Below, piece after piece: positions 31,563-36,750 of a stretch of DNA of 36,956 nt (position 1 is the stretch's first letter; every line of letters starts with the position of its first letter). Both the position numbers and the translations under genes were made by a program. This DNA is from Candidatus Abyssobacteria bacterium SURF_5 (GTDB lineage: Bacteria; Abyssobacteria; SURF-5): assembly GCA_003598085.1 (NCBI GenBank), contig QZKU01000017.1, positions 1-36,956 of the forward strand. The letters run 5' to 3'. The notes under the pieces are model-generated. The model worked only from the letters and a program-made list of their open reading frames with translations, did not search any database and was not told the origin of the DNA.

Positions 31563-32919
31563 TCGCCGATCCCTCCTGTTCAACCTGATTCACCGTGCAA
31601 GCGAGCGAGCCGCGGTGCAGTTTTACCCGAACGTGATCGCCCCCGCTCACCTCGGAACTATCGCGGATTATGGTTTTGTCCGGCTCGCGATACGCGATGC
31701 TATAGCCTCTTCCCAGAACAGCAAGCGGACTGAGCGAATCCAGCTTTGCGGCCAGGCCCCCAAGCTCGGCTTCACGCGAAGCCAGAGCGCGCTGCAGTCT
31801 CTCCGCCAGCATGCGCCCATCCGCGTGCAGCCGCTGACCAAGAAATGAGAACGCGCGTTCCGGACGCGCCGCAAGCAGCCGATTCCGCAGATTTACCGAC
31901 CTGGTCTCCAGATTCTCCAGGAACCGATCCTGCAATTCCTGCGTGCGCTCGCGGATGTCATCAAGCTGTTGTTCATATTGAACAAGCATATCGGACGGGC
32001 GGCGAAAAGCATACGCGGAAACCGCCGATTTCAGGCGGTGCCCCAGATTATCCAGAGAGGTGGAAACCGAGCGCGCGAGCGCCTGCCGAAGCCGCGCCAC
32101 ATCGGCGGCCACAGCCTCCCGCTCTTGCACAACCAGTTCCGCCGCCGCACTCGGCGTCGGCGCGCGCAGGTCGGCGACAAAATCCGAAATCGTGAAATCG
32201 ATCTCGTGTCCTACCGCGGATACCACAGGAGTCTTGCACGCGAAAAGAGCGCGAGCAACGACTTCTTCGTTAAACGCCCAGAGGTCCTCCAGCGACCCGC
32301 CCCCGCGCCCGACGATAATTACGTCGATATTCCCCAGGGCGTCCAGCACCCTTATGCCCTCGGCGATTTGCTCGGCTGCGCCCTCACCCTGGACCAACGA
32401 AGGATACAGCACCACCTCGACGGTCGAAAATCGCCGGTCGAGTACATGGAGAATATCCCGGATCGCGGCCCCCGTGGGCGACGTCACTACCCCTATTCGC
32501 TGCGGGAACAATGGAAGCGACCTTTTATGCTCGGCGGCGAAAAGACCTTCCTGGTCCAGCTTTCTTTTCAACTGCTCGAACGCAAGCTGTAGAGCGCCAT
32601 AACCGACCGGCTCGGCCCGCTCAACAATAAACTGATAGTTTCCCCGCTTCTCGTAGACACTGATTCTGCCGAAAACATTTACCTGAAGGCCATCCTGCAG
32701 TTTGAACTTCAGACGATCGGCATCACTGCGAAAAAAAACAATACTCAGTTGGCTGTGATTGTCTTTGAGCGTGCAATAAATATGGCCGGAAGCCTGTCTC
32801 CTGCAGTTCGATATCTCGCCACATACCCAGATGCGCCCGAAAAACTCCTCCAGGATGGTTTTGATGTTCCTGGTGAGTTCGGAGACGGAGAAAATATGAT
32901 CGGGAGCATAAACGTTCAT
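31555..32919 (-). CDS. xseA: Exodeoxyribonuclease VII large subunit
   Basis: A 454-residue catalytic subunit that degrades single-stranded DNA to oligonucleotides. The N-terminal OB domain (FSVSELTRNIKTILEE, VCGEISNCRRQASGHIYCTL) binds ssDNA. The catalytic core shows VVTSPTGAAIRDILHVLDRR (about 143-162), IIVGRGGGSLEDLWAFNEE (about 200-218) and AVGHEIDFTISDFVADLRAPTPSAAAE. A long coiled coil follows, then the C-terminal LGRGYSI segment. The Shine-Dalgarno is weak. An extended -10 promoter with perfect TATAAT lies just upstream, so this gene opens the operon. Confidence 0.96.
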   Translation of the reverse strand: MNVYAPDHIFSVSELTRNIKTILEEFFGRIWVCGEISNCRRQASGHIYCTLKDNHSQLSIVFFRSDADRLKFKLQDGLQVNVFGRISVYEKRGNYQFIVERAEPVGYGALQLAFEQLKRKLDQEGLFAAEHKRSLPLFPQRIGVVTSPTGAAIRDILHVLDRRFSTVEVVLYPSLVQGEGAAEQIAEGIRVLDALGNIDVIIVGRGGGSLEDLWAFNEEVVARALFACKTPVVSAVGHEIDFTISDFVADLRAPTPSAAAELVVQEREAVAADVARLRQALARSVSTSLDNLGHRLKSAVSAYAFRRPSDMLVQYEQQLDDIRERTQELQDRFLENLETRSVNLRNRLLAARPERAFSFLGQRLHADGRMLAERLQRALASREAELGGLAAKLDSLSPLAVLGRGYSIAYREPDKTIIRDSSEVSGGDHVRVKLHRGSLACTVNQVEQEGSANG

Positions 32920-32954
32920 GTCAGCAGTTCCGGAACTTCTTGATTTAACACTAA

Positions 32955-32983
32955 ATTATAACAAATAGCCACATCTTTCACAA
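32955..32983 (-). promoter_or_regulatory. Promoter for xseA-xseB-ispA-dxs
   Basis: Minus-strand TTGTGA (32983-32978) and perfect TATAAT (32960-32955) are 17 bases apart, with TG one base before the -10. The predicted start near 32948 leaves a leader of about 29 bases. Confidence 0.68.
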
Positions 32984-33036
32984 GGTTTTCGTTAAAACGG
33001 TTCTGCCTCCGCCCTACATCGGCATCTCCGTGTAGC

Positions 33037-33053
33037 GCAGGCATTTTGCCTGC
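33037..33053. repeat. Short inverted repeat, copy 1
   Basis: GCAGGC-ATTTT-GCCTGC, a perfect 6-bp stem preceded by TGTAGC. It resembles the second element at 33183-33197 and common GCAGGC/GCCTGC intergenic hairpins. Confidence 0.5.
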
Positions 33054-33182
33054 AAGGGGAGATGCTGCAAAGATGCACAAGAAGTGGTAGTAGTCTACGC
33101 CTAGGGCCAAATTTGAGAAGGAGAAAAATGATGCCTTAGACCTTCATCCCGTTGGCTGAATCCAGAAGAAGGAATGGTGGCG

Positions 33183-33197
33183 CAGGCTTCCAGCCTG
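33183..33197. repeat. Short inverted repeat, copy 2
   Basis: CAGGC-TTCCA-GCCTG preceded by GGTGGCG. Same CAGGC/GCCTG arms and five-base loop as the element 146 bp to the left, suggesting a small dispersed repeat family. Confidence 0.5.
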
Positions 33198-33359
33198 TGC
33201 TTTGGCCGGTCAACTGCCAAAAGTCCCCCCCTTGCCACATTCAATCTGAAGTTGGATATAATACACAAGCGTCAGTAAGTCTTACGGGCTTCCGCGCCCG
33301 GATTTCGGATGTTCCTCCAGCGGCGAAAGAATCGGGTTGGGAATCCTTTTTCTGAAATG

Positions 33360-33776
33360 TTACAACCGGTCTTCCGGAGGCGGACCTCCTCTCGTGCCGC
33401 GACCGCCCCAGCCGCCCCAGGCGGCAAAAACGATAATGAAAAAAATTATGATACCACCAATGATGATCCACCACCACCAGTAGTACCCGACTCTTTCCTG
33501 TTGATTCGCCGGTTCCTGGGGTTGTTCCACCTCTTCACCGGGGTATACTTGCTGGCCCTCTTCCTGTACCAGAAGCGGCTCAACTATTCCCGCCGGGTCC
33601 GGCTCAAAAATAAGAAATCGGCTCTGCGGTTCGGACCAGTAGCGCGGTGCATCAATATGAGAGGAATTCGCCGGAACCTGTTCCGGCGCTATCGCCTCTT
33701 TTCCCATGTCCATTTGTAGCAAAATAATGGGAAATAGCGCAAAAAGAAAGAGCGTTATCACTATCTTCCATGTCAT
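33360..33776 (-). CDS. Small exported protein with RFLIFEPDP motif and C-terminal membrane helix
   Basis: A 138-residue protein not matching any family I recognise. The ATG is preceded by AGGAGG at good spacing. An N-terminal hydrophobic segment (about 4-21) acts as signal peptide or anchor. The middle carries EPQSRFLIFEPDP (49-61), LLVQEE (68-73) and VYPGEEV (77-83). A Trp-rich second membrane helix (YYWWWWIIIGGIIIFF, about 98-113) is followed by a Gly/Trp/Arg tail (AAWGGWGGRGTRGG). The motif block is shared with the adjacent upstream product (33846-34115). It is co-directional with that gene, 69 bp downstream, and likely co-transcribed. Function unknown. Confidence 0.65.
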   Translation of the reverse strand: MTWKIVITLFLFALFPIILLQMDMGKEAIAPEQVPANSSHIDAPRYWSEPQSRFLIFEPDPAGIVEPLLVQEEGQQVYPGEEVEQPQEPANQQERVGYYWWWWIIIGGIIIFFIIVFAAWGGWGGRGTRGGPPPEDRL

Positions 33777-33845
33777 TGCAGAACCTCCTGGTTACCTGCA
33801 TTGCTCTCGGCTGCAAGGTGACGGCATGTGGCTTCGGTTGCGCCC

Positions 33846-34115
33846 TCAGGCATATCTCCATCCATCTGATTTCTCGACCACCTCAGGCGATGCCGGATAC
33901 ACGTCCTGGCGCTGGACGAGCATGGTCGCCGCAAGTTCCTTCGGATCGGGCTCGTATATCAGAAACCGGTATTGCGGATCCGGTTGTATGCGAATGGAAA
34001 TGGCCGAATCGGGATCCGTTGCTCTTCCGGTGTCATGATCGTTTATACTGGCTTCAACCGAAACACCCGCCATGAAAAGCACGATCATTGCCGGCACGTA
34101 ATATTTCCCCTTCAT
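33846..34115 (-). CDS. Small exported protein with RFLIYEPDP motif
   Basis: An 89-residue predicted secreted protein. The ATG at 34115 follows GGAGGAAATCTC; a start at 34202 would lack a ribosome site and push the signal peptide inward. The signal peptide is about 1-22 (KGKYYVPAMIVLFMAGVSVEA). The mature part carries DPQYRFLIYEPDP (46-58), MLVQ (65-68) and VYPASPEV (72-79), colinear with the product of 33360-33776. No lipobox and no second membrane helix. The family is not recognised; a structural or envelope-associated role is only a guess. It is divergent from the secreted OB-like gene at 34295. Confidence 0.65.
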   Translation of the reverse strand: MKGKYYVPAMIVLFMAGVSVEASINDHDTGRATDPDSAISIRIQPDPQYRFLIYEPDPKELAATMLVQRQDVYPASPEVVEKSDGWRYA

Positions 34116-34294
34116 GAGATTTCCTCCTTCTGGAACTTTCCCCGTCTGCCTGGAAGCAGGGCCTGCTAAATAAAGTTTATTCATACACCATGAAAAGAGC
34201 AAATGGTTCCCTCAATAGCAGTCGTTTCATTACAGTGTCATATTTTTAAATAAGAAGCCGTGGTTACGTTTGAATGAGATAATGGAGGTAAAAC

Positions 34295-34747
34295 ATGAAG
34301 AAGGCTATTATTGCGGGGTTCGCTATAATCATCGCGCTCGCGTTCACAGCCGATGCGTCCGCCCAGCAAATGCGGCGCGGTTGCTGGGGGCGGGCCGACC
34401 GCTACAACAGGCTGTATGATCCCGATACGGTCGTCACCGTGAGTGGAACCGTGACTGACATCGATTATTTTCAGCCGTCCGCAGGAATGGCGGAGGGGGT
34501 CCACCTGTTCTTACGGCAGCCCGATGGCACGCCAACCGAAGTGCACCTCGGCCCCAGGTGGTACATAGAGAATCAGGATATCTCGATTGATGAGGGCGAT
34601 TTCGTGGAAGTGACGGGTTCTCGTATCATGTTCGAAGGAGAGCCGGTCGTTATTGCATCATCATTACGGATGGATGGACAAGTGCTCCGGCTCCGCGACC
34701 GGCAGGGCTATCCTCTCTGGGCGGGCTGGAGACGCGAAGCCAATTGA
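34295..34747 (+). CDS. Secreted OB-fold-like protein, DUF5666-like
   Basis: A 150-residue exported protein. The signal peptide is about 1-23 (KKAIIAGFAIIIALAFTADA, cleavage after ASA). The mature domain has a compact beta-barrel pattern: VVTVSGTVTDIDYF (about 47-60), HLFLRQPDGTPTEVHLGPRWY, GDFVEVTGSRI, then IASSLRMDGQVLRLRDRQGYPLW near the C-terminus. This resembles small periplasmic OB-fold proteins (DUF5666 and relatives) of unknown function. GGAGG precedes the ATG. It ends 42 bp from the convergent CMD-family gene. Confidence 0.72.
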   Translation: MKKAIIAGFAIIIALAFTADASAQQMRRGCWGRADRYNRLYDPDTVVTVSGTVTDIDYFQPSAGMAEGVHLFLRQPDGTPTEVHLGPRWYIENQDISIDEGDFVEVTGSRIMFEGEPVVIASSLRMDGQVLRLRDRQGYPLWAGWRREAN

Positions 34748-34789: not shown

Positions 34790-35362
34790 TCACACAGAAC
34801 CTGATGCGTGGAGGAGTTCAGCGTTCTTACGCTCGAATTCCTCCTCGACGTCAACCTGGAATGTTTTAAGGAATTTCGCCACCATCGACCAATAGCCGAT
34901 GCAAAGCGTCAACTCGACGAGCGCCGCGTGATCGAGAAAGGCCGAGGTTTCCGCGAATGTCTTCGGTGAGGGCTGGTGCGAGCGGAAAAGTTCATCGGTA
35001 TATAGAAGAACAGCTTTTTCTTCACCTGTAAAGCAGGCCGAATCGCCGTAATTCTTCAAGTTCTTGATCTGTTCCATGGTCACACCGGTTTGCACGGCTA
35101 TAGATACATGATGCGCCCATTCATAGCGGGCTTCATGAAGCTGGGCGATCTTGAGAATGACAAGCTCTCGAAGGCGAGGGGAAAGGTGCGGTTTCGTGAG
35201 GAGCCTGCTGCCGAGCCGAATAAATTCCCGAACCGAGACCTCACTGTGCGCCACCATGCGATGAACATTCAGTATTTCCAGATCGCTCCTCTTGATTTTC
35301 TCGAAAAAGTCGCGCACCTTCTCCGAAGAACTGTCTATATCGGCATACGGAATTCTCGCCAT
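34790..35362 (-). CDS. Carboxymuconolactone decarboxylase (CMD/AhpD-like) family protein
   Basis: A 190-residue all-helical protein of the CMD fold. The N-terminus (ARIPYADIDSSSEKVRDFFEKI) and LSPRLRELVILKIAQLHEARYEWAHHVSIAVQTGVT (about 61-96) match the family. The AhpD CxxC redox pair is replaced by E-x-x-Y-E-W-x-H-H, so peroxidase-type thiol chemistry is not expected; lyase or decarboxylase activity is possible. LVELTLCIGYWSMVAKFLKTF closes the fold. AAAAGGGAGGG precedes the ATG. It is 27 bp downstream of the old-yellow-enzyme gene and likely acts in the same small-molecule pathway. Confidence 0.85.
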   Translation of the reverse strand: MARIPYADIDSSSEKVRDFFEKIKRSDLEILNVHRMVAHSEVSVREFIRLGSRLLTKPHLSPRLRELVILKIAQLHEARYEWAHHVSIAVQTGVTMEQIKNLKNYGDSACFTGEEKAVLLYTDELFRSHQPSPKTFAETSAFLDHAALVELTLCIGYWSMVAKFLKTFQVDVEEEFERKNAELLHASGSV

Positions 35363-35389: not shown

Positions 35390-36478
35390 TCAGATGGCGG
35401 AGTTTACTGAACATTGGATGCCCGGTTCTTCACCGCGCATGAAACATAACAGGCAACCGGTGCATTCAGTAACGGTTTCTACATTGCCCTCGAGCGTCTT
35501 CGTGACGAGCGCAGGATCTGCGATCAGGGCCCGACCAAGTGCGACCATGTCGGCCAGCCCCTCCTCAATCGCTGCCTCAGCGTCCCTCAGATGGAGGATG
35601 CCTCCGACGCCAATAACCGGGATGGCGACCTTTTCCTTCACTTTACCCGCCAATTTCAGAAGATTGCCCTGCGCGGCCTCCTGAAGCATGCGTGGTCCGG
35701 TATCTATCCCGCCTCCCGAGACGTGAATGATATCCAACCCGCTCTCAATAAACAAGTGTATCAGTTCGAGGCTTTCCTGCAGGGAAAGCCCTCCCTCCAC
35801 ATACTCCTCCATGCTCATCCGCAGTCCGAGAACAAAATCCTTTCCCACTCTTCTCCGGGCCCCCTCAAGAATATTGCAGACTATACGGCCTCGTTTCTTC
35901 GTGCTGCCGCCGTATTCGTCCCGCCTCTTGTTCGATGCGGGCGAGAGAAACTGATTTAGCAAGAAACTATGGGCGGCATGAAATTCCACGAGGGCGGCCC
36001 CAGCCGTTTTTGCGGCTTCGGCCGAGTGGATGAATTGACCGATGATGTCCTCGATCTCGCCCACGGCGAGCTCGCGGGGAACGACTCCTGTGGCCGGCGA
36101 GGGAATCGCGGAGGGACCGACAATATCCCCGTGCGCCAGTTCCAAATCTAGGACCCGCCCCCCATGATTGAGCTGAACGGCAGGAATCGAGCCGGCATCA
36201 AGAATCTCCCGGAAAAGCCTTCGTGCGGGAGCAATATGCCGATCCTCGAACAGGCACAAACTGTGGGTGCCCAGCCTCGATTGGGGTGAGATGCCCGTCG
36301 CGCCGACTATGGATAATCCCACTCGATTCTCAGCTATTCTCTTGTGGAATCTGATAAGCCGCTCCGTCGCCTCACCACTCCCCGAGGCAAGATTCGTCTG
36401 CACCGGCGGGAACACGATCCGGTTCGGAAAAATGACCGATTTAAGCTTCAACGGCTGGAAAAGCTGTTCAAATGGCAC
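35390..36478 (-). CDS. Old yellow enzyme-type NADH:flavin oxidoreductase with C-terminal Fe-S motif
   Basis: About 362 residues from the GTG at 36478 (an in-frame TTG at 36487 is the alternative, AAGGAGG lying just upstream of both). This is the FMN TIM barrel of the 2,4-dienoyl-CoA reductase group: LFQPLKLKSVIFPNRIV at the start, LNHGGR, EFHAAHSFLLNQFLSPASN, RRDEYGGSTKKR and the phosphate-binding IPVIGVGGI and MVALGRALIADP. The C-terminus CTGCLLCFMRGEEPGIQC resembles the 4Fe-4S ligand cluster of dienoyl-CoA reductase, but the protein stops five residues later (SVNSAI), so the FAD/NAD(P) domain is missing. Electrons must come from a separate partner. It is co-transcribed with the CMD-like gene. 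Confidence 0.88.
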   Translation of the reverse strand: MPFEQLFQPLKLKSVIFPNRIVFPPVQTNLASGSGEATERLIRFHKRIAENRVGLSIVGATGISPQSRLGTHSLCLFEDRHIAPARRLFREILDAGSIPAVQLNHGGRVLDLELAHGDIVGPSAIPSPATGVVPRELAVGEIEDIIGQFIHSAEAAKTAGAALVEFHAAHSFLLNQFLSPASNKRRDEYGGSTKKRGRIVCNILEGARRRVGKDFVLGLRMSMEEYVEGGLSLQESLELIHLFIESGLDIIHVSGGGIDTGPRMLQEAAQGNLLKLAGKVKEKVAIPVIGVGGILHLRDAEAAIEEGLADMVALGRALIADPALVTKTLEGNVETVTECTGCLLCFMRGEEPGIQCSVNSAI

Positions 36479-36498
36479 TGCTGACAAATACCTCCTTC

Positions 36499-36750
36499 TC
36501 AGCAGGATTCGGAGGGGGAAGCCTCCCCCTGATTCCTCGCAGGCATCTCGCGATGCAAGATATGGCGCACTTTCTGCAGGGACTTGTTTACCATGTCGCC
36601 CGAAGATTCGGCCAATCCACAAACCGCTTCATAGGCAATCATCCCGCCCGTAAGCGCATAAACGCTTAAAGGACGTAGACTTCTCTTCGGTAAAGGGGCG
36701 GCAACTCCCAAACCGATGCCCAGCAGCACGAGCGATGCTTTGAATTTCAT
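36499..36750 (-). CDS. Small membrane protein, DUF5132-like
   Basis: An 83-residue protein. The ATG at 36750 has GGGAGGAG upstream; the frame extends to 36819 but without a ribosome site. The pattern KASLVLLGIGLGVAAPLP (3-20), SLRPLSVYALTGGMIAYEAV (23-42) and a charged helix (ESSGDMVNKSLQKVRHIL) matches small DUF5132-type proteins with an apolar hairpin followed by an amphipathic helix. Function unknown. It is first gene of a likely operon with the old-yellow-enzyme and CMD-like genes. Confidence 0.65.
   Translation of the reverse strand: MKFKASLVLLGIGLGVAAPLPKRSLRPLSVYALTGGMIAYEAVCGLAESSGDMVNKSLQKVRHILHREMPARNQGEASPSESC

Follow-up and report, generated by a model that had tools for sequence, protein, structure and literature searches.

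The FESNov catalogue, drawn from environmental genomes, comprises 404,085 novel gene families, and according to the figures given with it, 23.7% of these families contain signal-peptide proteins and 32.9% contain transmembrane proteins (PMC10849945). Like the FESNov families as they are described there, the two adjacent genes considered here, termed A and B, encode short unknown proteins that appear to be exported or membrane-bound and that come from a sparsely sampled lineage (PMC10849945). Unlike A and B, which are known from one genome that holds both paralogues, the catalogue consists of curated families drawn from many environmental genomes. On the available sequence evidence, A and B are judged to be a real, undescribed and lineage-restricted pair of paralogues.

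GlyGly-CTERM and PEP-CTERM proteins resemble A in combining a signal-like N-terminus with a C-terminal hydrophobic helix and a basic tail, and such sorting tags recur on many proteins of a genome. The gamma subunit of F-type ATP synthase has a YEPDPxxL...LL...VY string in common with the block that A and B share, but it is cytoplasmic, carries no export signal and is helical throughout the resembling stretch.

Gene order and flanks of the pair

The window, i.e., the whole stretch of DNA that was analysed, is the complete contig C17 of genome G000 (36,956 bases; the genome amounts to 5.1 Mb in 145 contigs). On its minus strand, B is followed by a 69-nt gap and then by A, with these features:

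33846–34115, minus strand: gene B, small protein of 89 aa with predicted export, predicted to be soluble once its signal peptide is removed; shared block IRIQPDPQYRFLIYEPDPKELAATMLVQRQDVYPAS
33360–33776, minus strand: gene A, 138 aa, with N-terminal hydrophobic segment, shared block, Trp-rich predicted C-terminal transmembrane helix and Gly/Arg tail
33870–34007, minus strand: shared block of B, matching profile A2 (made from A and B themselves) at E = 6.2e-30
33522–33653, minus strand: shared block of A, matching profile A2 (made from A and B themselves) at E = 4.0e-27
34116–34145, minus strand: ribosome-binding site of B, AAGGAGGAAATCTC ahead of the ATG
33777–33806, minus strand: ribosome-binding site of A, CAGGAGGTTCTGCA ahead of the ATG, inside the 69-nt gap 3′ of B

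Each ATG start is preceded by a GGAGG site, and an alternative TTG start of B, located farther out, would give a product of 118 aa. One flank of the pair is formed by xseA-xseB-ispA-dxs-mfd (names assigned from the translations), a run conserved in both sister genomes, G001 and G002. The other flank consists of a divergent exported OB-fold-like gene, followed by a carboxymuconolactone-decarboxylase-like protein and an FMN oxidoreductase.

The phylum is sampled by three genomes (G000, G001 and G002), all of one family, and the two sisters belong to other genera than G000, with xseA 65–66% identical. The pair is absent from both of these genomes of other genera, where the best match to profile A2 is no better than E = 0.88. 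G002 keeps the order FMN oxidoreductase, decarboxylase-like protein, OB-fold gene and xseA, with roughly 7 kb of other genes, DUF2339 and DUF3999 proteins included, between the OB-fold gene and xseA. The genes upstream of xseA in G001 encode an ECF sigma factor and a large zf-HC2/FecR-domain protein (L020, 11181–14332). Since different, unrelated genes occupy the xseA flank in the two sisters, the spot is variable.

The OB-fold-like protein itself (34295–34747, plus strand), encoded divergently from B, shows weak similarity to the magnetosome protein MamS (E = 3.3e-10), its NCBIfam score of 40 bits lying far under the cut-off of 200; its G002 homologue is 40% identical and stands in conserved order. 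The carboxymuconolactone-decarboxylase-like protein (34790–35362, minus strand) has a weak NCBIfam match to ‘GroundWater_YciW’, at 44.9 bits against a cut-off of 310, and a G002 counterpart at 62% identity. Two palindromic GCAGGC-N5-GCCTG elements lie between A and xseA (33037–33052 and 33182–33197). The element occurs 27 times in forward and 24 times in reverse orientation in G000 (reversed control, 1 and 0), compared with 4 and 4 in G001 and 5 and 6 in G002; it is a REP-like dispersed repeat, particular to G000 among the three genomes, and it flanks the variable spot. Rfam gave no match anywhere in the window, and a scan of 32900–34400 for terminators and promoters returned counts close to the shuffled mean.

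Homology and coding status of A and B

BLASTP aligns A with B at E = 5e-9, with 49% identity over 37 columns, and their local score of 85 was reached by none of 5000 shuffles of B (top shuffle, 60). The common block reads (D/E)PQxRFLI(F/Y)EPDP, then seven variable residues, (L/M)LVQ and VYP; the spacing from EPDP to LVQ is the same in both proteins, and that from LVQ to VYP is off by two residues. The original prediction, in which the adjacent products align over RFLI(F/Y)EPDP, LVQ and VYP at nearly equal spacing, is borne out by these values.

In the DNA, the 23-codon ungapped block differs between A and B at 25 sites, of which 5, 6 and 14 fall at codon positions 1, 2 and 3, respectively, and 8 of the 13 identical residues are specified by different codons. 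By the Nei-Gojobori method, pS is 0.77 and pN 0.24 over the 23 codons, and 0.82 and 0.13 over the first 13; the excess at third positions has a binomial p of 0.016 and 0.009, respectively. The third-position bias and a pS far above pN therefore point to an old duplication in which the protein was kept rather than the DNA, an inference of selection drawn from one paralogue pair and 23 codons. The gene duplication that had been proposed is best described as a tandem, diverged one with a constrained common block.

A different account of the similarity is that the frames are spurious, neither gene being expressed, and that an old non-coding or antisense duplication left the resemblance behind. With 11 of 22 residues conserved, one antisense frame, whose wobble positions coincide with those of the sense frame, comes close to the sense value of 12 of 22, so that strand is not decidable by conservation alone. 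No orthologue was found in any collection searched, which also fits spurious frames, and A is neutral in synonymous codon bias (−0.011), which counts against gene status, though small genes are noisy. However, the competing antisense frame of A, at 45 codons, lacks a start codon before the block, whereas both sense genes have Shine-Dalgarno–ATG starts and positive scores per codon (+0.11 for A and +0.18 for B). The four open frames that compete with them score 0.00 to −0.16, seven other genes of the window 0.12 to 0.33 and the OB-fold gene 0.08. The A–B similarity also extends past the block, and a concentration of differences at third positions is not expected of a non-coding duplication. The start sites, the codon scores and the pS far above pN between the paralogues together support gene status for these orphans. 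Spurious frames are thus decidedly improbable, and A and B very probably constitute a real paralogous coding pair.

Protein features and resemblance to described families

Hydropathy gives B a single N-terminal hydrophobic segment, with a 19-residue mean of up to 1.75, and gives A two segments, at residues 1–26 and 96–127; the signal peptides of both were judged by eye and from hydropathy. Judged by its sequence, B resembles a Sec substrate whose mature part is short. A begins with an N-terminus of the same kind and continues with an acidic linker, YYWWWW, a hydrophobic helix and the tail GGWGGRGTRGGPPPEDRL. YYWWWW is presumed to lie at the outer interface, and the arginines suggest that the tail is inside. 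The hydropathy profiles agree with the differing ends originally described, both proteins having an N-terminal segment and A, in addition, a C-terminal membrane helix rich in Trp, followed by the Gly/Arg tail; this difference may reflect gain of the anchor by A or its loss by B. Export of both proteins in this topology is likely.

AlphaFold, run on the two-sequence alignment, gave a pLDDT of 53 for B and 61 for A. The predicted model of A has helices at 2–27 and 91–121 with coil between them; the C-terminal helix has a pLDDT of about 80, scores above 70 are limited to the two hydrophobic helices, and the shared block is coil. Because both predictions are poor, they give no fold backing for any function.

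B has no match in Pfam, NCBIfam, PHROGs or PADLOC, and A has none in NCBIfam at E ≤ 1 or in PADLOC. In Pfam, the candidates for A were Innexin (13.4 of 25 bits), placed on the hydrophobic C-terminal part, and DUF2207_C (13.6 of 33 bits), both rejected as under their curated cut-offs; the PHROGs match to phrog_16490 (E = 0.028) was likewise sub-threshold. The exact strings RFLIYEPDP and RFLIFEPDP gave no match in a literature search. The profile search that had been proposed as a check was run with both blocks (A2) and credibly matched no named, characterised domain. In line with the original remark that no family with this signature was known, none of Pfam, NCBIfam, PHROGs and PADLOC contains a credible model.

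The C-terminal hydrophobic helix of A, followed by its Gly/Arg tail, could be read as a sorting tag of the GlyGly-CTERM/PEP-CTERM type, in which case A would be cleaved and attached to the surface. Unlike proteins of that type, A matches no such model (no NCBIfam family at the threshold given above) and its C-terminal segment is unrepeated in the genome, a search of G000 with the last 42 residues returning nothing but A at E ≤ 10. The tail past the helix, at approximately 17 residues, is also longer than usual. A sorting tag is accordingly regarded as highly unlikely, and a retained membrane helix is the reading followed below.

The only solved structures matched by profile A2 are ATP synthase gamma subunits, at E = 0.018 to 0.16, which raises the question of whether the shared block is a fragment or homologue of the C-terminal helix region of F-type gamma (YEPDPxxLLxxLL...QVY). 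The match to E. coli gamma (E = 0.018) covers 31 positions, and the gamma subunit of another genome is matched at E = 0.002 per genome; a value of 0.018 is, however, marginal given the many searches made. Gamma subunits of the source genome (L052) and of its two family members have (F)EPSAEGLMQKLLPKYLQNQIY or FEPTAEELMQKLLPKYLQNQ(I/V)Y and bear far less resemblance to the block; L052 has FEPSAEGLMQKLLPKYLQNQIY at the matching stretch, so the genome's own gamma is not the closest, and the corresponding stretch of the gamma of a sister (L050) scores 4 bits, against 17 for the gamma of an unrelated genome. The PQxRFLI half of the block is absent from gamma, the prolines of A (IVEPLLVQ, VYPG) are unfit for the helix that gamma has there, and both A and B begin with export-like hydrophobic segments, unlike the cytoplasmic gamma. 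PF00231 (ATP-synt) was matched by neither A nor B in Pfam at E ≤ 1. With differing gammas in the genome and its family, the missing PQxRFLI and the helix-breaking prolines, homology to gamma was rejected as extremely improbable and the resemblance attributed to convergence.

A separate observation concerns the ATP synthase genes of G000. In addition to the standard gamma gene on contig C137, a second, divergent one (L053) of 295 codons, scoring 195 bits, is found on contig C128 at 35665–36519, which hints at a second, alternative F-type ATPase.

Distribution and putative role

Relatives of the pair were sought with whole-protein and core profiles at several thresholds. The first search of 60 genomes (E ≤ 0.1) gave a tally of 4/60, with three matches besides the window's own (E = 0.04–0.08), and a second 60-genome search gave 7/60, with seven places other than the window's own (E = 0.0015–0.099). 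In 386 genomes, the profile matched four at E ≤ 0.01, the source genome included, the three others having E values of 0.002–0.007; at E ≤ 0.001, none of 385 genomes was matched, this set being not independent, as it largely repeats the 386 among the rows listed. Reading frames were inspected for 12 of the 13 weak matches (L005, L006, L007; L009, L010, L012, L013, L014, L016; L047, L048, L049), and no small exported protein carrying the block was among them; the thirteenth, L011, has two internal stops and was left out. The best look-alike, a 67-codon frame in L048 (QQRFYIFQPDPCRIGSPLL), was rejected at E = 0.006 per genome, a level at which about 2–3 chance matches are expected in 386 genomes.

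Motif-seeded scans covered contigs of 84,980 species. The pattern RF(hydrophobic)(I/M/V)(F/Y)EPDP was found in 15 stretches of genome contigs, approximately the number expected by chance as estimated here from the degeneracy of the pattern. Nine of these are one and the same stretch in Rhodocyclales and relatives, with a composition that looks off-frame, and the remainder are pieces of unrelated frames. Three stretches in viral contigs are all unrelated. Of the pattern matches from the scan seeded with A1, 60 came from genome contigs and 52 from viral contigs; none was confirmed. A search of plasmids with B (P0001) gave three matches at E = 1–9, none credible, and a search of phages with A (P0002) gave none.

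No homologue was thus found outside the lineage in large genome, viral, phage and plasmid collections (metagenome contigs lay outside their scope), and the absence applies to named species genomes rather than to nature. The ‘family’ of the original prediction is reduced to two sequences in one genome, a third member being found nowhere searched. The pair had also been put forward as the best candidate for something undescribed; undescribed it is, with no credible model or homologue, while the superlative needs to be toned down beside a catalogue of 404,085 novel families.

The account favoured here, with moderate confidence, is that A and B are a genuine, probably co-transcribed and lineage-restricted orphan pair that arose by an old tandem duplication, both products being exported in the topology given above. 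After its release, B would be a small extracytoplasmic polypeptide, largely unstructured, and A would stay anchored in the inner membrane by its C-terminal helix, displaying the block on the outer side and keeping the Gly/Arg tail on the inner side. With a constrained part that is short, hydrophobic and bracketed by prolines, and with ends that differ between the two proteins, a shared linear binding motif is the simplest reading: the short hydrophobic RFLI(F/Y) between Pro-Asp/Glu turns might serve as such a motif, by which A and B might attach to one common extracytoplasmic partner or to one another, and the soluble and tethered copies might then compete or co-assemble at the cell surface. 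This putative shared-motif mechanism is tentative, and doubtful as it stands. A new two-part extracytoplasmic system, in which both proteins would bind one surface partner through RFLI(F/Y)EPDP and the tail of A would pass the binding state to the cytoplasm, is a quite improbable extension of it.

The adjacency of a soluble and an anchored product with a motif in common could alternatively be explained if B is a small secreted peptide, antagonistic or signalling in function, and A is its membrane-anchored immunity or receptor partner, mimicking B. Absence of the pair from the same place in relatives would fit this, as variable effector genes often behave in this way. However, there is no adjoining processing or export gene, the neighbours being xseA and the divergent exported OB-fold protein, and no defence, bacteriocin or phage model is matched, which makes a peptide and its partner unlikely.

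Under the favoured account of a lineage-restricted orphan pair, A and B are otherwise one case among the very many exported genes that are uncharacterised in uncultured bacteria, and they make no open question directly testable. Annotation noise is the usual verdict on orphan genes. In this case, the internal paralogue supplies the test of selection that orphans normally miss, and it indicates protein-level constraint on A and B.
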